Assembly: GCA_947450025.1 (NCBI GenBank)
Contig: CANFTW010000003.1
Location: 186,001 to 250,000, forward strand
DNA length: 64,000 nt
DNA from: Bacteroidota bacterium
GTDB taxonomy: Bacteria; Bacteroidota; Bacteroidia; B-17B0; Aurantibacillaceae
Direction of reading: 5' to 3'
Shown: piece by piece, positions 11,101 to 31,187 of the stretch
Position numbering within the stretch: position 1 is the first letter of the stretch
How the letters are laid out: every line of letters begins with the position of its first letter
The notes under the pieces: model-generated
What the model was told of the DNA's origin: nothing
Seen by the model: only the letters and a program-made list of their open reading frames with translations
The model's database searches: none
Position numbers and translations under genes: made by a program

Positions 11101-11727
11101 TGTAGTCGCTTCATAACTATTATATTTTATATATGTTCTAATTTTTACTTCCCCAGCAGCAATTACTTCAGGCGGAATGCCATAAAAATCAACACTAACA
11201 TTTTGAGTAAAATCACCATAAGGAGGATCAGTGAGTACAATTGACCCACTAATAACATCTGAGCTTGTAACATGCTTATTGTTTGTACTAATTGGAGCAA
11301 AATAATCGCCAACTTGATTATATGTGGTTGATGTATTATTACTATATGCAGCAAATGAACTTAAATTTTTTGCTACACATGTCCATGTTGCCGAATGATC
11401 ACCATTTCCCATAGAATGATTCCAACTTACATCATTTGCCGCAATTGCTGTGGTTACGCCTGAAGGGGTGTACATACCAAAATATTGAATCCAATTTCCA
11501 TTAATATCCTGATAATATAATTTGGCTGAATGTAATGTATAATAGTCATTGGCATATAGAGTAGAGTATACAAATGTAAGTGCATTCGAACTAAATCTAA
11601 TACGACCCTGACAAGGGTCATAGCTTACCGGTTGAGCAAAACTTGAAATTGAGTTTAAAATTAATAAAACAGTTATTAGTAAAAGTTTTATGTGTTTAAT
11701 GTGTAAGTGTATAATTTTATTCATCAT
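2164..11727 (-). CDS. Giant secreted LamG/fibronectin-like surface protein with T9SS type A sorting domain
   Basis: At 3187 residues this is the largest complete gene in the window. It has a signal peptide (1-32, ending SSFAQ). About 225-605 are four fibronectin-III-like segments. Three LamG/concanavalin-like domains lie near 650-825, 2070-2220 and 2275-2445, each with an LEFW-like strand and a DEFRL or QEVRLW segment. Two carboxypeptidase-regulatory-like beta sandwiches lie near 860-990 (TDALGNYNVTGIRY; TDAAGSFSISVPIGKHF). Near 2675-2775 and 3000-3100 there are copies of the module that begins the neighbouring 427-residue protein. The C-terminal ~75 residues are a type A sorting domain (MYPNPFSDNFTISF ... 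MYYIRITGD). Export through T9SS and surface attachment or release are inferred. It is probably the first gene of an operon with the two genes to its left; a LytTR-like site lies 63 bases before the start. Confidence 0.88.
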   Translation of the reverse strand: MMNKIIHLHIKHIKLLLITVLLILNSISSFAQPVSYDPCQGRIRFSSNALTFVYSTLYANDYYTLHSAKLYYQDINGNWIQYFGMYTPSGVTTAIAANDVSWNHSMGNGDHSATWTCVAKNLSSFAAYSNNTSTTYNQVGDYFAPISTNNKHVTSSDVISGSIVLTDPPYGDFTQNVSVDFYGIPPEVIAAGEVKIRTYIKYNSYEATTDYTFNSSSTAGEIQTISSPNNLTATNNLCGQIKLDWLNPTQTWENNVSGCASFKYSNLIYRDGTPIAQVADNLTTWTDNSAVLGTTYSYRIKQIFWNKNAYQFIPSQFSAAASGNVKPLPPQPISFAATTDNCTGEINLNWSWTSTETPQDFILRYGTSPVGPFTQLPVIANTSRQFTHSSLTRGLTYYYQLTARNNCNSESAIASTYGLSPSDPAIPSAVALTQNTLNATNTITWVDNSTNETKFQVERQDDLGNTVFFDVNPNTTSYIDNGVASCRSYKYYVKVFSNCVLSGLRSANFAEDILPPPNLNTTFDATKKLTASKGYFGNRVELSWSNNNSNNVDLFKIYRKELNSASDSVQISSLPGVSAFYIDNTCDARVFYRYTIVGVKNCLSSEILTNISSDIGFRSPAGLVSGHVEYTGGVAVGGAKILVQQSGALTGNSLNFNTGSNLTITDNAKLEPGSELRLEFWYKPLNGISGTIVKKTNAFEFALSGSNYQATIFNGGVANTVSMSSSLLPLNQWNHVSMVYNNSVFKLFANDSLAASISATGSIDDNANDLVIGSASSAFLMDEFRLIGKAASDSVISVEQNRILNGNEPDFKCNLHFDEGVGNYSYDVSKVVNTYNANHAVMSGSVVSSVDIPSSAQLGYFGVTDALGNYNVTGIRYAGSGENFNIVPAYATHSFTPNSRVVYVGDASYVYNNQNFVDNSSFSFTGEVRYKNPDGSASCPVPGATVKIDGLAVVQYGVQVLTDAAGSFSISVPIGKHFVSVEKYGHTMQEGRYPPLANSVHDFQAPVNSVQFIDSTKLKLVGRVVGGTVEANKAPGMGRSKNNIGSAKIIIKSQGVACYRDTVITDSISGEYEFNVPPLIYDIADAYVITNSVTISKTHLSNTSSLIDLTNSFLKTTVIDTLFDSNGGVLNIDSIKYNKRLDMVYRSDPNIDVTMLDGSKFIGDDSLKVGATKVSIQPNTNPGIYGWGPLNWPVFTQNKTYTAKIVASELYSNADISSAPDKDTVLLSGHILVTNDLVDGIDPNSSFSFENGVGTYSFVCGSPNIAATTPASNLDYTKNIQVVVVPEGAASVMWKPNIALSTTNPFYHALVSGKRITGTGISTQGPEKVDFILRDPPGSGSSSSWTSGSTVTKSTSLSNGDSQDIGISTDIFLGSKAVVGVGFATEVAIENSISLGLSTNISSNEGSDITEVITSANSVSTRDDANYVGAPADIFIGRSRNWLVGPTANIELSDTAGCYTCFGAVLVVGGTPKQLALKLGYAVAPDNVRTRFSYTQDEIETTVIPQLEAIRNSVLLNSPGKYSTTLAPTDPRFASNNDDPLWGASATSTTPAVYDPVDSLGQSYTFWGYNNLINKDTVRILNTQIALWKQALAQNEREKLACVNYTGGVLIDNFTLGSAIVNNVYQTDNQTTSTSDWELQINEDIAFQIGGSVAGAGVLVKPSLSFHQTSGGSTSTSTNLSNTFDYTLTDGDPGDIMSIDVYKSPEGTGNIFITRGGQTMCPYEDAVVCHYYNPANPNGYIGSHTFNATGFATISNATTQREIPNIAITPSNQLNIPSNQAAVYQLVLTNQSSLNVNNNIDLQIRIASQTNPNGAVLKIDGQNANTIVNIPSNGSVIKTLTIERGPIEIKYDSIMVIFSSACSEDIADTAYVSVHFIPTCTEIEISTPTDNFIVNNSNNNIANVVIDNYNYNYGVAANTSTITNVLHPNFGFEKIGYEIKPGNTSSWLEIKDFYKVPNATQSIIPTNQVYTQYQWTVTPQTYPDGNYEIRAVSYCYNKDGSYATVYSPVLSGVMDRVNPAPFGTPTPGDGILDPNDDISIQFNEPIDLSSLSTLNFDIRGVLNGTNIRHAESLNFDGVADYVEVAGGVSIQKRSFTMEFWAKLNTVGINQTVISQGTDPVQKMMIGLDNSNNLIFTLGNQTVTSSASVPTPTNWHHYAIVYDYANTDAILYIDGTLAGTNSNFLVDYTGSGKLAFGKALPTNINYLHGNLQEVRLWNDARTITEILSTMNKVLSRNQSGLMYNWKMDEADGTISNDDIRNRNADIYGATWEVNPNGYSAQFDGIDDNIQVSAGNITITKEMDFTLEFWFNSSQSGVSTLFANGKGDGLGADSLDSWNIQKDASGIIHVYHNGLDFVATNTNHFDGTWHHFALIMNRSGNLSSYIDGNLQNSVQGLAFNNLSGAYIYLGARGYENANTINYDNHFDGKLDEFRLWNTARKAEQLKRDKQNRMLGDEYGLQAFLPFEYYAAVMGTPSLTATFNNQSVNTLTVIAQNGVVTSGQTPTIKLPRPVQSVNYTWLLNNDKIILTPTTSPDLLENVTLDVTVKNAYDMHGNIMQSPKTWIAFVNKNQVKWEDDQFDFEKTVDSVITFTAPIVNTGGALKAFTINGLPIWMTANITSGMIAPNSIQNIVFTISAGGTIGDFSADLSVTTDFNYAEILQINLKVKGETPLWAVNPSNFQYSMNIFGQLKIDNVISTNIENKIAAFSNGVICGVGNLQYLPAYDRYEVFLNVYSNSITGDSIQFNIYDAASGLTFVNVTPNIMFVENDVVGTVTNPITFIANTEIEIKIPLNNGWTWFSLPLQSNKLANSNLLMSNLNSTSGDIVLSSSNFDQYDAGLSWLGNISQGAGFFNNQSYKIKSANTDTLVHIGTRIFPDSSIATISVQPGWNWIGYVSTKNKGIAEALGNYNATTGDLIKSQYEFSYYDNLMGWTGSLTYMKPAMGYMLKSASASTFNYPLSTYIGKMENPLIISTNQSLFPFNPEAYDNTMSVIISGNICNEALEQGNVLIGAFDATNTMRGYANPIKNTATNSYNYYLTIFSNTDGEVLKLKYFNTTDGSVLSTNSNLTFTTNALVGVPSAPIISNVADSVACKVVNITTALTNGNNSDNVSMYPNPFSDNFTISFNKVVSVKIELVDLLGKVLFSSIIKDKKDQVITLSANQNVAAGMYYIRITGDINQQIKAIKTK

Positions 11728-11790
11728 GGTAATTTGTCCTTAATTTTAATACACTAAGCTAAATAAAACATTGACGTCTTTTATCTTTTT

Positions 11791-11820
11791 GGGGTGAGTA
11801 ACCTAGCTTTGTATGTGAAT
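11791..11820 (-). promoter_or_regulatory. LytTR-like operator, copy 1 (before giant surface protein)
   Basis: On the plus strand the site is GGGGTGAGT, 15 bases, GTGAAT. Read in the direction of the gene it is ATTCAC-N15-ACTCACCCC, a direct repeat with a 21-bp period. Related 30-bp copies occur at 13427 and 16712, all in the same orientation to the downstream minus-strand gene. The near edge is 63 bases from the start codon of the giant LamG protein. Two LytTR regulators are encoded in the window, and LytTR domains bind direct repeats about two helical turns apart; the link to a specific regulator is inference. Confidence 0.6.
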
Positions 11821-11837
11821 GACATGAATATTAAAAC

Positions 11838-12731
11838 CTAGTAGTATTTTTTTAACTTTTTATTTACGTAAAATTTAACAGCCGTTTTAAGTGTGAAATA
11901 AAAAAAAGGGCTCAAGTTTTCATTAAGTTGATTAACAGGAAACGCATAATGAAAGGCGGGTTCTATGTACGCGTTGTTTAATAAAAGCCTAAATGGTAAA
12001 TTAGTTTCAATATCTATAAGCCTATACGTTGCCTGATTATTATAATCATGAGGATAATCGCCGTAAATAGTTAAAAAGTTTTTATTAGCAAACACGCTAC
12101 TAATTTCTGGTTTAATAAATAATACACATGTTTTGGAAAAAGTGTGAAGCCTTATTTTTTTATTAATTAAAAAATCATTTTCTAACACATTATAATTGCC
12201 AAACATATCATAAGCAATAGCAGAAAAATTAAAATGTTTAAACTCAAAAGAGCTTTGTATAGTAATGGCATTATTAAGCGCTTTGTTTACATAGTCTTCG
12301 CCATTAAAGGTTAACCATTTTTCATAACTAATGCTAGCGTAAATTCTTTTAGTAAATTCTTTTTCGTATCCAATTCCAATATCGCCAAAAGCAATAGTGT
12401 TAGGAGTAGCTTCTTTACTCCAATAATAAAATGTATTATAAATAAACACTCCTGTTTTTGAAGTGAATAATAGTGAAAAGTCAAGGCCGTTTTGTTTTAA
12501 ACCAAACGTTCGGCCCCAATAAACAACTTGTGGCTGAGCATTGATTGCAATTTCGAGTGAAGAGGAGTTTGAATGAATAGAATCTTTATTTAAACTCAAA
12601 GAATCAAATATAGCTTTATTAAACTCGTTTTTTTTATGGATACTGTTTGTGACTTTTTGAGCGAATATGTTTAACGTCAAAACACAAAAATATAATATCA
12701 AAAATATTTTAAATGCTTTTTGATTACACAT
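11838..12731 (-). CDS. Hypothetical exported protein, possibly an outer-membrane beta-barrel
   Basis: I do not recognise this 297-residue protein. It opens with a hydrophobic signal peptide (about 8-24, LTLNIFAQ). The rest is rich in alternating aromatic and polar stretches such as VFIYNTFYYWSKEATP and IYASISYEKWLTFNG. It ends in strands reading PFFYFTLKTAVKFYVNKK, which is compatible with an outer-membrane barrel. It contains a GIGYEKEF segment typical of transporter-like or structural barrels but no catalytic motif I can name. It lies 39 bases after the membrane-protein gene at 12771-13355 and probably shares its transcript. The giant surface-protein gene begins 110 bases further on but has its own putative operator. 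Confidence 0.6.
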   Translation of the reverse strand: MCNQKAFKIFLILYFCVLTLNIFAQKVTNSIHKKNEFNKAIFDSLSLNKDSIHSNSSSLEIAINAQPQVVYWGRTFGLKQNGLDFSLLFTSKTGVFIYNTFYYWSKEATPNTIAFGDIGIGYEKEFTKRIYASISYEKWLTFNGEDYVNKALNNAITIQSSFEFKHFNFSAIAYDMFGNYNVLENDFLINKKIRLHTFSKTCVLFIKPEISSVFANKNFLTIYGDYPHDYNNQATYRLIDIETNLPFRLLLNNAYIEPAFHYAFPVNQLNENLSPFFYFTLKTAVKFYVNKKLKKYY

Positions 12732-12770
12732 GATTTTTTAATGAGATAAATAAGTGCTCAGCAAAAAAAA

Positions 12771-13355
12771 CTAATCAATAACAGAATTTAAGCTTTTATT
12801 AAAAAAACTTTTTATAAAATCTTTTATAAAAGCAAATTCAATAATCGCACCAATGAGAATAAAAAACACACAGGCAGAATATAAATAATTTTCGATACCT
12901 ACTGTATTAATAAGATCGTTTGGTACTTCAATAATAACCGTAAATATTTCAATAAACAACCCGATTAATAAAAGGCCCATTCCACAATATTCAGACACAT
13001 CATTTAAGTGTTCTTGCAAGGGCGTAATTTTTGTTTTAGTCATTTTGGTAATAGTCTCTCTTGATTCCATTAGCACACCCATTGAAATTAAAACAATTCC
13101 AATACTGTTGATGGTAATGTTAACTTTATCAAGCCCATTTTTTTCAATGTGCGGTGTGTTATGCATGATTTGATGTAACATTGTGCGCAAAAAATTAGGC
13201 TTTTCTTCGTGTGCATTTTCTATATGATCGATAATTGCATACACAACATATTTTACACAATAAAAACTAAAAAAAAATGTCACAGCATTAAGGGTAATAA
13301 AAAACCATCTGCCGATTATTCCTTTCATTAAAAAAACTAAAATTTTATTATTCAT
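12771..13355 (-). CDS. Hypothetical integral membrane protein (about four helices)
   Basis: This 194-residue protein has four hydrophobic segments. They lie at about residues 17-40 (FFITLNAVTFFFSFYCVKYV), 80-98 (TINSIGIVLISMGVLM), 120-145 (YCGMGLLLIGLFIEIFTVII) and 155-175 (YLYSACVFFILIGAIIEFAF). A charged loop with HIENAHEEKPNF and several His residues follows the first helix. I do not recognise the family. It starts an apparent two-gene unit with the putative barrel protein 39 bases downstream. A LytTR-like site lies 71 bases before its start. The divergent neighbour is a membrane-anchored FMN enzyme. Function unknown; a role in the envelope is the most that can be said. Confidence 0.62.
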   Translation of the reverse strand: MNNKILVFLMKGIIGRWFFITLNAVTFFFSFYCVKYVVYAIIDHIENAHEEKPNFLRTMLHQIMHNTPHIEKNGLDKVNITINSIGIVLISMGVLMESRETITKMTKTKITPLQEHLNDVSEYCGMGLLLIGLFIEIFTVIIEVPNDLINTVGIENYLYSACVFFILIGAIIEFAFIKDFIKSFFNKSLNSVID

Positions 13356-13426
13356 ATGAGCAGGTTTTTGATTTACAATTTATATAAAATCAAATTTAAA
13401 AAAAAATTTAATCGTAGTATAAATAT

Positions 13427-13456
13427 GGGGTGAATGACGCTCGTTTGTGGGTGAGT
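13427..13456 (-). promoter_or_regulatory. LytTR-like operator, copy 2 (divergent intergenic region)
   Basis: The 30-bp site reads GGGGTGAAT, 15 bases, GTGAGT on the plus strand. It shares GGGGTGA-T-AC and the TTTGT core with the copies at 11791 and 16712. It lies in the 196-bp gap between the membrane-protein gene (start 13355) and the GltB-like gene (start 13552). Its orientation and distance (71 bases) match the other copies relative to the minus-strand gene, so that gene is the likelier target, but control of both genes is possible. Confidence 0.52.
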
Positions 13457-13551
13457 GGTAATAAAATAGCAAATCCATAATTTATTTTTTCAATTTATTT
13501 TTATGGAGAAAGATTCCATTACATTTACTTACAATTTAAAAATGAGCAAAC

Positions 13552-15150
13552 ATGAGAACAAAATTTATTTACTTATGTATTATATTAACATTATTAATAG
13601 GTGTTATTAGTATTTTTTATCCTTCTTTTTTATGGGCGTTTGTGTTCGTTGTTCCATTTATTTTTCTTGGAATCAAAGACATGATTCAAACCCAACATAG
13701 CTTAATTCATAACTTTCCGGTAGTTGGGCGCATGAGATGGTGGGCCGAATGGATGCGTCCAAAAATTTATCAGTATTTTATTGAATCAGATACAGATGGA
13801 GCGCCTTATAATAGATTAAGTAGGAATGTAATATATCAGAGATCTAAAAAGGTTGCAGACTCTACTCCGTTTGGCACACAACTAAATGTTTATGAATCAG
13901 GCTACGAATGGCTAAATCATTCTATTGCACCTTTACCCTTAGAGGATGGATTGCATAGCCCAAGAGTTACTGTTGGTGGTCCGGATTGTAAGCAGCCTTA
14001 TAGCGCCAGTATTTTTAATATATCTGCTATGAGCTTTGGTTCATTGAGTAAAAATGCAATTATGGCGCTAAATGGTGGCGCTAAACTTGGGGGTTTTGCG
14101 CACAATACAGGCGAAGGTGGTTTGAGTCCTTACCATTTATTACCTGGCGGAGATATTGTTTGGCAGATTGGAACTGGATATTTTGGTTGCAGAAACCAAG
14201 ACGGGACTTTTAATGGAGCAGCGTTTGCAGAACGAGCTATATTACCAAATGTCAAAATGATTGAAATAAAATTATCTCAAGGTGCAAAACCTGGACATGG
14301 AGGTATTTTACCTGCAGCAAAAGTTACTGATGAAATTGCTAAAATTCGCTTAGTAGAAAAAGGAAAAGATGTGCTCTCGCCTTCTTATCATAAAGCATTT
14401 GGTACGCCATTAGAACTCCTTCAATTTATAAAACAATTAAGAGAATTAAGCGGGGCAAAGCCTATAGGATTTAAATTATGTATTGGGCAAAAAAGTCAAT
14501 TTATTGCTATATGTAAAGCTATGGTAAAAACAAACATAATGCCTGATTTTATTACCGTTGATGGTGGAGAAGGTGGGACGGGCGCGGCTCCTTTAGAATT
14601 TAGCAACTCCGTAGGGATGCCATTAAGAGAAGGTTTAGCGTTTGTATATGATGCGTTAAATGGTTTTGGTTTAAAAAAACATATTACAATAATTGCTTCC
14701 GGAAAAGTACATACAGGATTTGATTTAGTGAAAAATTTTTCGCTTGGTGCAGATATATGCAGCGCTGCAAGAGCCATGATGATGTCGTTAGGTTGTGTTC
14801 AAGCATTAGAGTGTAATACAAACACTTGTCCAACTGGTGTGGCCACACAAAATCCAAATTTATATAATGGATTAGATGTTAATTTAAAAAAAGTTAGAGT
14901 CGCTAATTTTCAATATGAAACCGTGAAGGCTGCTGTAGAATTAATGTCGGCAGCAGGAATTAAACATCCCGATAATTTACACCGCTCTCATATTTACAGA
15001 CGGGTTAGTGCAAATCAAATTCAAACTTATGCCGAATTATATCCTTATTTATTAAAAGGATCTTTATTGGAGGCCCCGTATCCTAAAGGTTGGGAATTTG
15101 ATTTAATGCATAGTAGCTCAGATACATTTGAAAGCGCTATAAAATATTAG
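13552..15150 (+). CDS. FMN-binding glutamate synthase family protein (GltB central-domain homologue), membrane-anchored
   Basis: This 532-residue protein matches the FMN-binding synthase domain of glutamate synthase but lacks the N-terminal glutaminase and the C-terminal GXGXG domain. Residues about 5-40 are strongly hydrophobic (one or two helices), which suggests membrane anchoring. Recognisable motifs are SAMSFGSLSKNAI, GEGGLSPYH, KLSQGAKPGHGG, FITVDGGEGGTGAAPLEF and the Cys pattern C415-x5-C421-x4-C426, the 3Fe-4S ligand spacing of GltB. Stand-alone proteins of this type are common in bacteria, and their true substrate and electron partner are not established. No gltD lies nearby. A LytTR-like site sits in the upstream gap. 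It may act as an amidotransferase-independent synthase or another flavin oxidoreductase. Confidence 0.88.
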   Translation: MRTKFIYLCIILTLLIGVISIFYPSFLWAFVFVVPFIFLGIKDMIQTQHSLIHNFPVVGRMRWWAEWMRPKIYQYFIESDTDGAPYNRLSRNVIYQRSKKVADSTPFGTQLNVYESGYEWLNHSIAPLPLEDGLHSPRVTVGGPDCKQPYSASIFNISAMSFGSLSKNAIMALNGGAKLGGFAHNTGEGGLSPYHLLPGGDIVWQIGTGYFGCRNQDGTFNGAAFAERAILPNVKMIEIKLSQGAKPGHGGILPAAKVTDEIAKIRLVEKGKDVLSPSYHKAFGTPLELLQFIKQLRELSGAKPIGFKLCIGQKSQFIAICKAMVKTNIMPDFITVDGGEGGTGAAPLEFSNSVGMPLREGLAFVYDALNGFGLKKHITIIASGKVHTGFDLVKNFSLGADICSAARAMMMSLGCVQALECNTNTCPTGVATQNPNLYNGLDVNLKKVRVANFQYETVKAAVELMSAAGIKHPDNLHRSHIYRRVSANQIQTYAELYPYLLKGSLLEAPYPKGWEFDLMHSSSDTFESAIKY

Positions 15151-15240
15151 TAATACTTTTTTGGCCTGAGTGGAATTGTTTTCTAACGCAAATGAAAACA
15201 TTATTACCATGATGATGCTTTGAAAGTGCTATAATCTATA

Positions 15241-16653
15241 TTATTTCTTACTATAGGATGGAATCATCTTTGTTAATTTTTCTTTAGCGTTTTCATCCAA
15301 ATCAAAACACGCATCAATAACATCAAGCATTACTTTTACAGAAGTTGCTGCGCCTGGGCTAGCACCTAATAAGCAAGCTAAACTTCCATCTTTGGCAGTA
15401 ACCAATTCGGTGCCAAATTCAATAACCCCTTTTCCATTAACTCTTTTTATAACTTGCACTCTTTGTCCTGCAACAGATGTTTTCCAATCTAGTGGATTTG
15501 CGTTTGGATAATACTCTTTCAATACACTGAACCTTCCTGCTTTTGATTTAAACAACTCCGTCATTAAATATTTTGTTAAACCTAAATTACGAATCCCGGC
15601 ATCCAGCAGCACGCTAATATTATTTAATTTAATAGACTTAAAAAAATCTGTCCAATGGCCATATTTTAAAAATTTTGTTGACATGCCTGCATATGGTCCA
15701 AACAGCAAACACTTCTTTCCGTTAATTGTTCTTAAATCTAAGTGAGGAGTAGACATTGGAGGAGATCCCACGCTTGGTCTTCCATATACTTTAGAAAAAT
15801 GCTTTTCAACAACCGCTTGGTTATCACAAATTAACCATTCGCCAGAAACAGGAAACCCTGCGTATCCTTTTGCCTCAGGAATGCCTGATTTTTCTAATAA
15901 TGTAATAGCAGCCCCTCCTGCTCCAATAAAAACAAATTTAGTTTCAATCCTAGTTATTATATTACTCATTAAATCCTTTTGAATAACGTTCCACTTATTG
16001 CCCACCTTATATAAATCAATGACTTCGTGGTTTGTCCCAAAATCAATATGATGATTTTTAAGATTCTCAATAAAATATTTAGTTATCTTTCCATAATCAA
16101 TGTCATAACCATTATGAACCGTAATTGCACAAGGAGAATTCCCGTCTCTACCTTCCATCATTAATGGTATTTGTTTACACAGATCTTCTTTTTGAGCGTA
16201 GTATTCCAAATCCACAAATTCATCAGACTTTATCATTGTAGCCCATCTTCTGTGCAAGTAATCCACATTTTTACTTCCTGTAACAAAACTAATGTGTTTT
16301 GTTAATGTATATATGTCCCCTTTTATTTTTCCCTCTTTGATTAAATATTGCCAAAATTCCTTCGATTTAGAAAAAGCCTTATGTACTTTACTTGCTTTAG
16401 AAATATCAATATTCCCGTTTGCATCTTCAGGCGTATAATTTAACTCACAATAACCAGAGTGCCCAGTCCCTGCATTGTTGAGGCTTGACGAACTTTCTTG
16501 AGCTTCACCGTTTCTACGTTCACTTACCTGTATTTTAAAATCTGGAAAAAGTTCAATAAGCAATGTTGCAAGTGTGGTGCTCATGACGCCTGCACCTATT
16601 AAAAAAACATCTGTTTCCGTTTTCTTTAAATTTATATATTTCGAATTTTTCAT
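15241..16653 (-). CDS. mqo: Malate:quinone oxidoreductase
   Basis: At 470 residues the protein has the usual length of Mqo, the FAD-dependent peripheral membrane enzyme that oxidises malate to oxaloacetate and passes electrons to quinone. The N-terminus carries the dinucleotide-binding motif LIGAGVMSTTLATLL (about 18-32). It is followed by the family-typical SLNNAGTGHSGYCELNYTP and, further on, VGSPPMSTPHLDLR and LLFGPYAGMSTKFLK. The C-terminus has ACLLGASPGAATSVKVMLDV. It stands alone on the minus strand, with 173 bases to the response-regulator gene upstream. A LytTR-like site lies 58 bases before its start, so control by the adjacent two-component pair is a reasonable inference. It complements the fumarase gene (fumC) elsewhere in the window. 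Confidence 0.95.
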   Translation of the reverse strand: MKNSKYINLKKTETDVFLIGAGVMSTTLATLLIELFPDFKIQVSERRNGEAQESSSSLNNAGTGHSGYCELNYTPEDANGNIDISKASKVHKAFSKSKEFWQYLIKEGKIKGDIYTLTKHISFVTGSKNVDYLHRRWATMIKSDEFVDLEYYAQKEDLCKQIPLMMEGRDGNSPCAITVHNGYDIDYGKITKYFIENLKNHHIDFGTNHEVIDLYKVGNKWNVIQKDLMSNIITRIETKFVFIGAGGAAITLLEKSGIPEAKGYAGFPVSGEWLICDNQAVVEKHFSKVYGRPSVGSPPMSTPHLDLRTINGKKCLLFGPYAGMSTKFLKYGHWTDFFKSIKLNNISVLLDAGIRNLGLTKYLMTELFKSKAGRFSVLKEYYPNANPLDWKTSVAGQRVQVIKRVNGKGVIEFGTELVTAKDGSLACLLGASPGAATSVKVMLDVIDACFDLDENAKEKLTKMIPSYSKK

Positions 16654-16711
16654 TGTTACATTCGTTTAATTGTAACTAAATTAAATGAAATATCAATCTA
16701 AACTGTTTTTT

Positions 16712-16741
16712 GGGGTGAATAACCGAACTTTGTATGCGAAT
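16712..16741 (-). promoter_or_regulatory. LytTR-like operator, copy 3 (before mqo)
   Basis: The site reads GGGGTGAAT, 15 bases, GCGAAT on the plus strand, i.e. ATTCGC-N15-ATTCACCCC toward mqo. It shares ACTTTGTATG with little change from copy 1 and lies 58 bases before the mqo start, directly downstream of a LytTR regulator gene. The equal spacing, orientation and 21-bp period across three promoters argue for a shared regulator. Confidence 0.6.
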
Positions 16742-16826
16742 GTATAAAGCTTCAGAAATTGAAAAGCTAAAATATTTGATTTAAAGCAATAATTTATATC
16801 ACAACTTTTGGCCTCGTTATAATGAA

Positions 16827-17498
16827 TCAATCCAAATTAATATGATTTCCTCTTGAAACAGGTATTTCGACACTACCAATGAAAACACTTTTTGCTTTAG
16901 TTTTAGTAATTTTATTTATGTTTACTAAGTATGAGCGATGGGTGCGATGAAAATAATTTTTTGGAGATTGTTCTTTAAACCACTCTAATGTATTGCGAAT
17001 AGTAAACTTTGAATCAGTTGTAAAAATATGAATATAATTATCGTCGCTTTTTATAAATAAAACTTCATCAAAAAACAACTTGATGTTTTCGTAACCATTT
17101 TTAATATGCAAAAAGTTTACTTCATTAATTTTTTGTTTTACTAATTCAATGGCCGTAAACACATCTGCTTCTTTAATAGGTTTAGTAATATAACTTATAG
17201 GTTTAGTGCTAATTGCCTTAGCAATAATCTCTTTATCAGAATGTGCAGATATAAATACAAATGGGATTTTGTATGTATTATTAATTTGATGGGCTAATTC
17301 CAAGCCATCTAATTCACCTGTCATCCTAATGTCTAAGAAAACCACGTCTGGTAAAAAATTGTTAAGGCTCAACGAGGCTTGAGTTAAATTATGAGCAAGT
17401 TGAATGTCAGAATAATTAAACGACAAAAGAATATCCTTTATAAATTCTGCTATCAAAACTTCATCTTCAATAATAAGTATTTTTAACACCCTACTCAT
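16827..17498 (-). CDS. LytTR-family response regulator
   Basis: This 223-residue protein has an N-terminal receiver domain (about 5-120) with acidic residues E11/D12, phosphoacceptor D56 in VVFLDIRM, a Ser84 switch position and K106 in YITKPI. A LytTR DNA-binding domain follows (about 130-223), with VLFIKSDDNYIHIFT, FHRTHRSYLVNINKI and IPVSRGNH. LytTR proteins bind direct repeats and usually activate nearby promoters. The start codon overlaps the last 8 bases of the kinase gene, so the two are translationally coupled and form a cognate pair. The three 30-bp direct-repeat sites in this region are its most likely targets, one of them immediately downstream in front of mqo. Confidence 0.93.
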   Translation of the reverse strand: MSRVLKILIIEDEVLIAEFIKDILLSFNYSDIQLAHNLTQASLSLNNFLPDVVFLDIRMTGELDGLELAHQINNTYKIPFVFISAHSDKEIIAKAISTKPISYITKPIKEADVFTAIELVKQKINEVNFLHIKNGYENIKLFFDEVLFIKSDDNYIHIFTTDSKFTIRNTLEWFKEQSPKNYFHRTHRSYLVNINKITKTKAKSVFIGSVEIPVSRGNHINLD

Positions 17499-28277: not shown

Positions 28278-29672
28278 TTACAATATCGCTCTAAATAATA
28301 AAAACAATCCTCCTGATAAAACGATTGTAACAGGTAAGGTTAACACCCATGCTAAAGCAATATTAATAATTGTTCCTTTTTGTAAATTTTTTAATCCTTT
28401 TTTTGCAACCATTGAACCTGCTATGCCTGATGATAGCATGTGTGTTGTGCTTACCGGTAAACCAAAAGCCGAAGCTAAGCCAATGCCTCCAGCAGCAACC
28501 AACTCGGCACTAGCGCCCTGAGCATAACTCATATGCTGTTTCCCGATTTTTTCACCAACCGTTTTTACGATACGTTTCCAACCGACCATCGTGCCTAAAC
28601 CTAAGGAAACCGACACCATAATAATTACCCAATAAGGCGCATACTCGATTAAAACTTTCGCTTCTTTTAATTCGCGCTTTAGGGACACAATTTCTTTTTG
28701 ACTTAGAGAAAGATTTCCGCTATTAATCAATTTTTCACTAGCTGATTTTATTTTTACAATATCTGTTCTTAATCTAAATTTACTTGTTAGAGCTAATTCA
28801 CTAGATTTAAATTTTCCTTTTGTTTCTTCATTAAAATGACTTCCGCAATCAAATATCGTTTTATATAAATTTTGTTGATTATCCGATAAAATACTTGTGT
28901 CGGCTTTTGACATCAATTGTTCGATGTGGTTTATGTTAGCACTTACGCTTTGAATATTAACTTTTTCATCAACGGCAAAATATCCCGGCATAATGGCAAT
29001 TAAAATAATCATTATTAAACCAACACCTTTTTGTCCATCGTTTTGTCCATGAAAAAAACTAACTAACCCACATGTCGCCCATAATAACATACGTATCCAA
29101 ATAGGAGGCACTTTACCCGGAATAGGTTCTTTATATATAATGTCATTTTTAATTGTTCTTTTAAATAAAAACATCATTAAAATAGCTGCAGAAAATCCTA
29201 AAAGAGGAGATATTAATAATGCTAGTCCGGTGTCTTTAACCTTGTCCCAATTAATTAAACCGTTACCGCCAGTATCCGGTAAAAAGTAAAACGAAATTCC
29301 TATACCTAATATAGAGCCTATTAACGCGTGTGAACTAGAAGCGGGAATCCCCATCCACCATGTTCCTAAATTCCAAATAATCGCCGATAATAATAAAGCT
29401 ACAATCATAGCCGCGCCGTGATAAACACTACTATCTACCAAAACCTCCATGGGCAGCAAATTAATGATTCCCATTGCTACAGCAATTCCACCTGTCATTA
29501 CGCCTGTAAAATTTAATAAACCGCTGTAAACAACAGCCACGGTTGGTTTTAAGGAGTTAGTGTAAATTACAGTTGCAACAGCGTTTGCAGTATCATGAAA
29601 TCCATTTACAAATTCAAATGCACACGCTAATAATAAACAGATAATTAAAAGGATAAATAGTCCGGTTGTCAT
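28278..29672 (-). CDS. PiT-family inorganic phosphate transporter, second copy
   Basis: This 464-residue integral membrane protein has the two PiT signatures: FEFVNGFHDTANAVATVI near the N-terminus and SFFHGQNDGQKGVGLIMI in the middle. It also has IPASSSHALIGSILGIG and VSTTHMLSSGIAGSMVAKKG, the inverted half-repeats of the family. A hydrophilic loop of about 100 residues (roughly 235-335) separates the two halves. PiT proteins move metal-phosphate with protons or sodium. It is a close paralogue of the gene 120 bases upstream, of identical length, diverging mainly in the central loop. It ends in a strong terminator. No PhoU-like gene lies adjacent, although such pairing is common. Confidence 0.93.
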   Translation of the reverse strand: MTTGLFILLIICLLLACAFEFVNGFHDTANAVATVIYTNSLKPTVAVVYSGLLNFTGVMTGGIAVAMGIINLLPMEVLVDSSVYHGAAMIVALLLSAIIWNLGTWWMGIPASSSHALIGSILGIGISFYFLPDTGGNGLINWDKVKDTGLALLISPLLGFSAAILMMFLFKRTIKNDIIYKEPIPGKVPPIWIRMLLWATCGLVSFFHGQNDGQKGVGLIMIILIAIMPGYFAVDEKVNIQSVSANINHIEQLMSKADTSILSDNQQNLYKTIFDCGSHFNEETKGKFKSSELALTSKFRLRTDIVKIKSASEKLINSGNLSLSQKEIVSLKRELKEAKVLIEYAPYWVIIMVSVSLGLGTMVGWKRIVKTVGEKIGKQHMSYAQGASAELVAAGGIGLASAFGLPVSTTHMLSSGIAGSMVAKKGLKNLQKGTIINIALAWVLTLPVTIVLSGGLFLLFRAIL

Positions 29673-29792: not shown

Positions 29793-31187
29793 TTATAAAA
29801 TGGCCCTAAACAGCAAAAATAATGAACCAGATAAAATCATGGTAACCGGCAGGGTTAATATCCAAGCCAAAAATATACTAGTAATTGTTTTTCGTTGTAG
29901 ATTCTTTAATCCTTTTTTAGCAACCATACTTCCCATGATACCTGAGCTTAACATGTGAGTTGTACTCACGGGAACTCCATAAGCAGAGGCAACCCCAATG
30001 CCCATAGCCGCTACTATTTCGGCAGATGCGCCTTGGGCATAACTCATATGTTGTTTTCCAATCTTTTCTCCTATCGTTTTTACGATTCGTTTCCATCCTA
30101 TCATGGTTCCTAAACCTAATGAAACGGATATCATAATAATAACCCATGATGGAGCGTATTCAACTAATTTTTTAGCTAATTTGATTTCAGCTTTTAAAAC
30201 TTTTTCATTGTTTTTTGAAATAGCAACGTTTGAACTATTTAATAATTTTTCGGCACTCTTTGTAATTTTTACTATATCTTTTCTTAATTCAAAGCGTTTT
30301 GTTAAATCAACAGACTCTACTGTTAATTTACCAGCAGTTGCTTCAGAAAAATGAAGAGCGTGCGCTTTAACGTTGTTAAAATATTTTATTTCTTCTTTAC
30401 CAAACTGTGTTGTGTCTGTGGTAGAAATTATATTACTTATTAGAGTAATGTTTGCGTTTGTACTTTGTAAATTAACTTCTGAGTCTAAAGAAAAGCTAGC
30501 TGGCAAAATGGCAATTAAAATCATCATCACTAAACCAACACCTTTTTGTCCATCGTTTTGTCCATGAAAAAAACTAACTAACCCACACGTAGCCCATAAT
30601 AACATGCGTATCCAAATGGGAGGCATTTTACCCGGAATAGGTTCTTTATAAATAATTTCATTTTTTATTAGACGTTTAAAAATAAACATCATTAATATTG
30701 CTGCGGTAAATCCTGCTAATGGCGATATTAATAATGCTAATCCAGTATCTTTTGCTTTGTCCCAGTTAACTGCGCTTCCTCCTACGTTATCTGGTAAAAA
30801 ATAAAAAGCTAGTCCAATTCCTATAATAGATCCAATTAACGTGTGAGAACTTGATGCGGGTAAACCAAACCACCAAGTACCTAAATTCCATATAATAGCT
30901 GATAATAATAATGCTAGAATCATAGCTATACCGTGATATACATTACTGTCTACTAAAACCTCCACAGGCAATAAATTAACAATGCCCATAGCGACAGCAA
31001 TACCACCTGTCATTACTCCAATAAAATTCAATATGCCGCTATAAACAACAGCAACAGTAGGTTTCATAGAGTTAGTGTAAATTACTGTTGCTACGGCATT
31101 AGCGGTATCGTGGAACCCGTTTACAAATTCAAATGCACACGCTAACACTAGACAGATTACTAAAAAAACGATTAAAATTGTTGTCAT
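29793..31187 (-). CDS. PiT-family inorganic phosphate transporter, first copy
   Basis: Also 464 residues, with NGFHDTANAVATVIYTNSMK, LPASSSHTLIGSIIGIG, FFHGQNDGQKGVGLVMM and VSTTHMLSSGIMGSMVAKKG, so all PiT landmarks are present and it should be an active phosphate permease of the inner membrane. The helical parts are nearly identical to the copy at 28278-29672. The central hydrophilic loop (about 230-335) differs clearly, suggesting old duplication with different interaction or gating of the loop. The 120-base gap between the copies has no clear terminator, so they may be cotranscribed. rpiB lies 90 bases upstream on the same strand. Confidence 0.93.
   Translation of the reverse strand: MTTILIVFLVICLVLACAFEFVNGFHDTANAVATVIYTNSMKPTVAVVYSGILNFIGVMTGGIAVAMGIVNLLPVEVLVDSNVYHGIAMILALLLSAIIWNLGTWWFGLPASSSHTLIGSIIGIGLAFYFLPDNVGGSAVNWDKAKDTGLALLISPLAGFTAAILMMFIFKRLIKNEIIYKEPIPGKMPPIWIRMLLWATCGLVSFFHGQNDGQKGVGLVMMILIAILPASFSLDSEVNLQSTNANITLISNIISTTDTTQFGKEEIKYFNNVKAHALHFSEATAGKLTVESVDLTKRFELRKDIVKITKSAEKLLNSSNVAISKNNEKVLKAEIKLAKKLVEYAPSWVIIMISVSLGLGTMIGWKRIVKTIGEKIGKQHMSYAQGASAEIVAAMGIGVASAYGVPVSTTHMLSSGIMGSMVAKKGLKNLQRKTITSIFLAWILTLPVTMILSGSLFLLFRAIL

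Follow-up and report, generated by a model that had tools for sequence, protein, structure and literature searches.

Predicted LytTR-type operators before a giant LamG protein gene, an envelope operon and mqo in a Bacteroidota genome

LytTR operators have been described as two repeats of 9-11 nucleotides (nt) with 11-13 nt between them (PMC4847170; this and the other papers are cited from the sections consulted). Escherichia coli YpdB, for instance, binds a direct repeat of GGCATTTCAT (PMC4847170). On the promoter side, the sigma-A -7 box of Flavobacterium psychrophilum, TAnnTTTG, lies at -12 to -5 (PMC9723704). Here we analysed a 64,000-nt stretch of a Bacteroidota genome (contig CANFTW010000003.1, positions 186,001 to 250,000; hereafter the window), in which three direct-repeat sites stand near the genes of a LytTR response regulator, P0001, and a sensor kinase, P0002. 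The sites are very probably operators of this regulator (16827-17498), which is predicted to activate the genes of a giant LamG protein of the type IX secretion system (T9SS) and its neighbour, the P0004-P0005 genes and mqo.

The three operator copies are GGGGTGAGTAACCTAGCTTTGTATGTGAATGAC (11791), GGGGTGAATGACGCTCGTTTGTGGGTGAGTGG (13427) and GGGGTGAATAACCGAACTTTGTATGCGAATG (16712) in plus-strand coordinates. Their anatomy is directly observed: toward the genes, on the minus strand, they read CATTCACATACAAAGCTAGGTTACTCACCCC, CACTCACCCACAAACGAGCGTCATTCACCCC and CATTCGCATACAAAGTTCGGTTATTCACCCC, with the consensus A[TC]TC[AG]C-N15-A[TC]TCACCCC, that is, two half-sites with a period of 21. Operator 1 (11791-11823; ATTCAC-N15-ACTCACCCC, period 21) precedes the giant LamG/T9SS gene, operator 2 (13427-13458; ACTCAC-N15-ATTCACCCC) precedes a membrane-protein operon and operator 3 (16712-16742; ATTCGC-N15-ATTCACCCC) precedes mqo. 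They are separated by 63, 71 and 58 intervening bases from the minus-strand starts at 11727, 13355 and 16653. A preliminary description had placed three copies here, as an ATTCAC-like direct repeat of period 21 lying 58-71 bases before the starts of the giant LamG, membrane protein and mqo genes, and our reading agrees with it on each point. With two 9-nt half-sites 12 nt apart, the window sites have the layout described for LytTR operators, and with a -7 box at all three they also lie just upstream of a promoter, as such operators do.

In the genome of origin (3.2 Mb, 28 contigs), a 25-base pattern of the three sites matched the three window places and one further place with two mismatches, while its reversed-pattern control gave 0 matches. 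The fourth place is doubtful, since our site model, R1, gave it E=0.9. R1 itself recovered the three window sites, its next match in this genome having E=0.026. In mono-shuffled sequence (0.73 Mb) the top score was 15 of 20 consensus letters against 20 for the window sites, a comparison that is partly circular as the consensus was derived from these three sites. The whole-genome search thus leaves the three sites essentially alone, each before a start. Recurrence in related genomes, described below, tests the sites against chance more strongly.

Each operator is followed on the minus strand by a -7 box: TAGCTTAG at 11754-11761, 29 nt from operator 1, TAAATTTG at 13391-13398, 28 nt from operator 2, and TAATTTAG at 16676-16683, 28 nt from operator 3. 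Reading the regulator loci of ten genomes of the genus added 16 sites to the window's three, and this promoter register is observed again: TAnnTT[TA]G starts 28-29 nt past 14 of the 19 sites and has no second copy in the 120 nt behind them. Averaged over columns, identity is 85% in the operator, 58% in the spacer and 75% in the ten TAnnTT[TA]G columns. This fall and return, as well as the preserved orientation and gene distance, speaks against the idea that the three copies are nothing more than a small mobile element or a duplication of promoter segments, with no binding protein dedicated to them. The copies do lie within 5 kb of one another, and two operators 1.6 kb apart in one related genome (G004; L045:12250-12322 and L045:13896-13968) are identical over 36 bases, suggesting promoter-segment copying as a route by which the site may well have spread. 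However, sites recur beside regulators of 43-76% identity, and neither a wider conserved element nor many off-promoter copies were seen in the 20 genus genomes searched. An element lacking its own binding protein is thus very hard to credit.

R1 includes the box, and a box count over its matches in other loci (20 of 26 matches used) is for this reason partly circular. We therefore added an operator-only matrix, which is blind to the box. Among 69 held-out loci it found 23 sites, spread over 19 of the loci, against 0 in one mono-shuffle, and the boxes within 120 nt of these 23 sites were at 29 in ten cases, at 30 in one, at 31 in one and elsewhere in five.

Placing the box at -12 to -5 puts the end of the proximal half-site at about -41 and the centre of the pair at about -56; no -33 element was recognised by eye. 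The operator-box spacing of 28-29 nt, which was absent from the preliminary description, is an activator-like geometry as judged from the sequence, and a fixed upstream arrangement with its centre near AgrA's -60 favours activation. The adjacent regulator might instead bind the sites and repress the promoters, for the sign of control is not readable from sequence, and AgrA reportedly keeps bsaA repressed when bound immediately downstream of its promoter (PMC4227749). Here, however, the -7 box follows the sites, in most cases after a constant interval and with the proximal half-site ending near -41, and the geometry resembles that of AgrA P2/P3, where the repeats are centred at about -60 (PMC4227749). 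We consider repression unlikely. The TTTGT core was also tried as a -7 box facing away from the genes (TAGCTTTG at site 1), and it was dropped because the other two copies mismatch TAnnTTTG by eye and the spacing of the gene-side box is constant over many genomes.

P0001 (16827-17498, minus strand) has a receiver domain followed by a LytTR domain (PF00072 at 7-117, 72.2 bits; PF04397 at 139-217, 67.2 bits, cut-off 22.6), the architecture of a LytTR regulator. It carries FHRTHRS at 183-189, which corresponds to the FhRhHRS motif as defined in PMC4227749; motif letters two and four are not both hydrophobic, and F183, R188 and S189 are invariant in 12 aligned sequences. The sensor kinase P0002 (17491-20610, minus strand) contains Reg_prop, Y_Y_Y, HisKA_2 and HATPase_c in the domain scan, which gave no receiver or helix-turn-helix family match. 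It has a transmembrane stretch by eye, and its gene overlaps the P0001 gene by 8 bases. The kinase/LytTR pair said to adjoin the third copy is made up of these two genes, operator 3 lying 84 bases past the 3' end of the P0001 gene.

P0002 is likely the partner kinase of P0001, and we propose that this propeller/Y_Y_Y kinase would phosphorylate P0001. Two LytTR domains would bind the half-sites A[TC]TC[AG]C and A[TC]TCACCCC, which are 21 bp apart and thus presumably on the same face of the DNA, and bound P0001 would act as an activator beside RNA polymerase at the -7-box promoter. The targets would be the giant LamG/T9SS protein together with the T9SS protein encoded behind it, the P0004-P0005 operon and mqo.

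The recurrence of the sites at the regulator locus is a direct observation. Of 60 genomes, counting that of the window, 10 had a match to the pattern with no more than one mismatch, seven of them among the 20 genus genomes, and the reversed-pattern control gave one match. The conservation in related genomes on which the preliminary description had staked its claim is thus present. Of the 11 genus genomes that encode a close P0001 relative (E<=1e-40), 7 have sites, and of the 9 that lack one, none has (Fisher p=0.004). Moreover, 14 of the 15 genus matches are at most 6 kb from a P0001-type regulator gene, the exception being G004:C45. Across the 20 genus genomes R1 matched 21 places with E<1e-5; 19 of these are its building sites, and the next match had E=0.001. 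The gene next after the 19 sites encodes a giant or LamG protein in 8 cases, mqo in 4, the kinase in 4, P0004 in 2 and a small exported protein in 1.

Outside the genus there were three one-mismatch matches (G035, G037 and G052), roughly the chance level. The one in G035, which belongs to another genus, has an R1 E-value of 1.6e-6 and is on a different contig from the P0001 relative of that genome. It precedes a LamG-like gene (26.6 bits versus a cut-off of 27.6) with a signal-peptide-like start by eye. A weak R1 match (E=1e-3) was also seen in G012:C109 (L091:1500-1570), with a LytTR-type gene on one side and, on the other, the divergent gene of a surface protein whose repeats are RCC1-like by eye.

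The window encodes a second LytTR protein, P0003 (38776-39540), and the genome of origin has ten LytTR matches. The sites might therefore belong to P0003 or to some other regulator that this genome encodes and lie near 16827-17498 by accident, and their general layout is one that is common to LytTR sites (PMC4847170). However, P0003 is present in 19 of the 20 genus genomes, with and without sites, and a protein that is nearly universal is an unlikely partner of the sites; we rejected it for this reason. R1 found no site in the 1.5-kb flanks of nine other LytTR loci of the genome of origin, and half-site class follows the tree of P0001-type regulators (in the labelled rows; see below). A reader other than the adjacent regulator is very unlikely. 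Both LytTR proteins had been named as candidates; P0001 tracks the sites, P0003 occurs irrespective of them, and P0001 is most likely the cognate regulator, with its binding to the sites being predicted.

Relatives of P0001 were also found in a scan of named genomes, where the closest named relatives of the window genome are uncultured Bacteroidota, and the loci of the best 80 of 227 relatives were used. R1 was run on 69 of the 80, the 11 omitted ones coming from genomes already examined, and it gave 18 matches with E<0.01 in 16 loci. Ten of these are just after the regulator gene, four before the kinase, two before a surface protein and two before unnamed genes. At L139 and L142 the match follows the regulator gene without a clear gene close behind.

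The period of 21 is observed beyond the genus by a count that uses no model. Direct repeats of 12 bases with at least 9 matching have this period in 17 of the 61 stretches of 200 bp, held out and non-redundant, that follow related regulators, each of the other periods from 13 to 33 occurs in 0-7 stretches, and 200 shuffles gave a mean of 3.0 and a maximum of 9. For this set 67 stretches were listed and 6 redundant ones dropped, with ten loci of the model genomes and three partial matches excluded. The repeats are of two kinds, class A (ATTTCAC-like) and class B (TTTCAGAACA-like), the latter listed for Flavobacterium, Epilithonimonas, Saprospiraceae and other Bacteroidota. Class A loci include L138 (Flavobacterium urocaniciphilum) and L148 (Epilithonimonas xixisoli). 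In a quick regulator tree of 60 of the 80 loci and the window, with class labels set by hand, the two classes are separated by one change among the labelled rows. These labels include the weak members L150 (R1 E=0.37) and L146 (from the period scan), and the rows left unassigned include L124 (E=0.041, 22 positions), L131 and L133, the last two of which have a site later found by the operator-only matrix. This observed agreement of half-site class with regulator clade is expected if each regulator reads the neighbouring repeat.

The class B repeat, with a period of 21, trails a distinct LytTR clade (L167, L172, L178, L180, L188, L189 and others). Of five genes scanned behind class B sites, two encode a protein with a T9SS tail, two a phosphatidylinositol-phospholipase-C-like protein and one a HisKA_2 kinase.

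LamG genes account for 16 of 60 genes directly after the regulator versus 11 of 752 other open reading frames (77 of the 80 loci, three partial regulator matches being excluded). The Fisher value of 7e-13 is overstated because the loci are related and because the LamG profile, with 9 of its 11 domains taken from regulator-following genes, is biased toward such genes. Over the Bacteroidota, the typical targets would thus be LamG/T9SS surface proteins and the kinase gene, which in the genus is preceded by a site in G016, G018, G013 and G007 and probably also in G019. Among the window operators, operator 1 has counterparts before related giant genes in G014, G010, G015, G004 and G016. Operator 2, between the P0004 operon and a divergent glutamate-synthase-like gene (13552-15150), has one in G004, and P0004 has a site at two of the loci read. 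Operator 3 has counterparts in G014, G015 and G004.

The mqo of the window (84-100% identical) is found in 4 of the 20 genus genomes, each time at this locus and with the site. Five other genus genomes have an mqo that is 48-52% identical, and R1 found no site in the 1.5-kb flanks of these five genes. Since this mqo with its site is limited to four genomes and the other mqo genes lack a site, the surface protein and the kinase look like older targets and mqo like a later recruit. The operators might then be real and mqo a passenger, its site a by-product of promoter capture with little effect on malate oxidation. The genome of origin also encodes an NAD malate dehydrogenase, with which the control of mqo may matter little. 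In each of the four genomes, however, mqo still has an intact operator and an intact -7 box in front of it. We regard a passenger mqo as improbable on balance, though it is the alternative to which we give the most weight. As a side observation, at L117 and L190 (G035) a P0001 relative is followed by a metabolic-looking gene, with no R1 match there. By its sequence this gene looks like one for a fructose-1,6-bisphosphatase, and it perhaps represents another metabolic neighbour.

The first suggestion, that LytTR-type operators serve an adhesin gene, an envelope operon and mqo, thus passes the computational tests that the preliminary description proposed. The target set stands for the sites before the giant LamG gene, the P0004 operon and mqo in the window, and it is narrower over the genus, where the mqo site is limited to 4 of 20 genomes and the P0004 site to two of the loci read.

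Several points weigh against these sites being operators through which P0001 activates the genes behind them. Binding, phosphorylation, activation over repression and the signal are inferred. The 19 sites were hand-picked, the low scorers L049:2830 and L051:4281 being retained for their repeat and place, and five others scoring 14-15 of the 20 letters, three of them in the window and two in L047, were set aside; 5 of the 19 have no -7 box. R1 was made from sites found near regulators, so that its scores there are circular, and its genome search scored 150 candidates per genome, so that weaker sites can be missing. In 19 further loci of family regulators (1.5-kb flanks), R1 reached E<0.01 in just 4. 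In the regulator tree, 17 of 61 rows are without an assigned site, and with these as a third state the tree takes 10 changes (shuffled mean 26.1). GGGGTGANTNAC alone, with at most two mismatches, occurs 18 times in the window where 24.65 are expected and so shows no enrichment, and the case thus rests on the full site. The agreement of half-sites within single sites is weak against permutation (p=0.024) and was not relied on. The window kinase gene P0002 has no site of its own, and its autoregulation was rejected for lack of a site match at this gene. Finally, two genomes misfit a strict pairing of regulator and site: G003 has a regulator relative (E=8e-51) with no site at that locus, and G009 has an R1 match (E=8e-7) with no close P0001 relative.

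The G009 match (L090:1500-1570; G009:C23:16964-17033) precedes an operon whose products look by eye like a LytS-like kinase and a regulator of the LytTR type, and it is perhaps the same layout in another LytTR family.

More broadly, a HisKA_2 kinase and a LytTR regulator with a clade-specific 21-bp operator might form a widespread adhesin switch of the Bacteroidota that captured mqo in the lineage of the window, a proposal to which we give slightly less than an even chance. If it is true, the operator of the switch lies in front of the gene of a LamG protein exported by the T9SS and in many cases also in front of the kinase gene, and in the lineage of the window the TCA-linked mqo has come under the switch by gaining the same operator, so that a single sensor sets attachment proteins as well as quinone-linked malate oxidation.

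The other genes of the locus are as follows. The giant surface protein P0008 (2164-11727, minus strand; 3187 amino acids) has three Laminin_G_3 stretches and a T9SS Por_Secre_tail. It is followed after 65 bases by the gene of P0007 (815-2098, minus strand), a T9SS type B sorting domain protein, and the two probably share one transcript. P0004 (12771-13355, minus strand) is a membrane protein, hydrophobic by eye, and P0005 downstream of it (11838-12731, minus strand) is probably exported, also by eye; neither has a Pfam or NCBIfam match, and a fold prediction for P0005 from two sequences had a predicted local distance difference test score of 30.5. The malate:quinone oxidoreductase gene mqo (15241-16653, minus strand) matches TIGR01320 above the cut-off. 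In the domain scan, P0009 (13552-15150, plus strand), divergent from operator 2, is a glutamate-synthase-domain protein, and it is a conserved neighbour in G014, G015 and G004. Farther away, 28278-29672 and 29793-31187 encode adjacent 464-amino-acid paralogues, which one L046 protein matches at 77 and 82%; they are putatively phosphate-transporter-like.

Bacteroides hybrid two-component systems combine kinase, receiver and a DNA-binding domain of AraC type in a single chain. They are like the locus described here in their sensor region, with a propeller (Reg_prop) and Y_Y_Y, and unlike it in that P0001 and P0002 are separate genes, the regulator being of the LytTR type, so that the pair is not a one-chain hybrid. 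P0002, with HisKA_2, HATPase_c, Reg_prop and Y_Y_Y, is not a LytS/AgrC-type kinase either, and this places the pair outside the LytS/AgrC kind although its regulator side is LytTR-like. A literature search, with most subscription journals outside its scope, found no LytTR operator described in Bacteroidota in the sections consulted, and no paper pairing LytTR with laminin G, malate quinone oxidoreductase or two component regulator propeller. PMC5395568 and PMC10197871 mention LytTR and 'direct repeat', and in the sections consulted they treat other matters.

E. coli YpdA/YpdB-yhjX is similar in having a direct repeat, a LytTR response regulator and very few targets (PMC4847170), and in G013 GCATTTCAC occurs twice with a period of 21, nearly the YpdB half-site. 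It differs in being a LytS/LytTR pair with a pyruvate-responsive kinase (PMC4847170), whereas the kinase here has Reg_prop, Y_Y_Y and HisKA_2, and its target is a transporter, whereas T9SS surface proteins and mqo are the predicted targets here. Staphylococcus aureus AgrA at P2/P3 also has a direct repeat just upstream of the promoter, centred at about -60, and acts as a dimer on the repeat, with the FhRhHRS motif conserved in the family (PMC4227749). The motif is FFRCHNS in AgrA and FHRTHRS in P0001. Half-site sequence, kinase and targets are different from those of AgrA, and the promoter here is of the Bacteroidota -7 type. Bacteroidota sigma-A promoters have the same kind of box, TAnnTTTG (PMC9723704, PMC2483708), and differ from the promoters here, which have a LytTR-like operator 28-29 nt before the box; a term search of the main text of PMC9723704 did not find LytTR, LytR, AgrA or direct repeat. 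Control by LytTR proteins from direct repeats is thus already known, and what sets the present case apart is the type of its kinase, its T9SS/LamG targets and the presence of a site in front of mqo. If our reading is right, sequence alone yields the operator, promoter and targets for many Bacteroidota regulators beside large T9SS surface proteins, and the window is a testable example of a metabolic gene recruited to a surface regulon.

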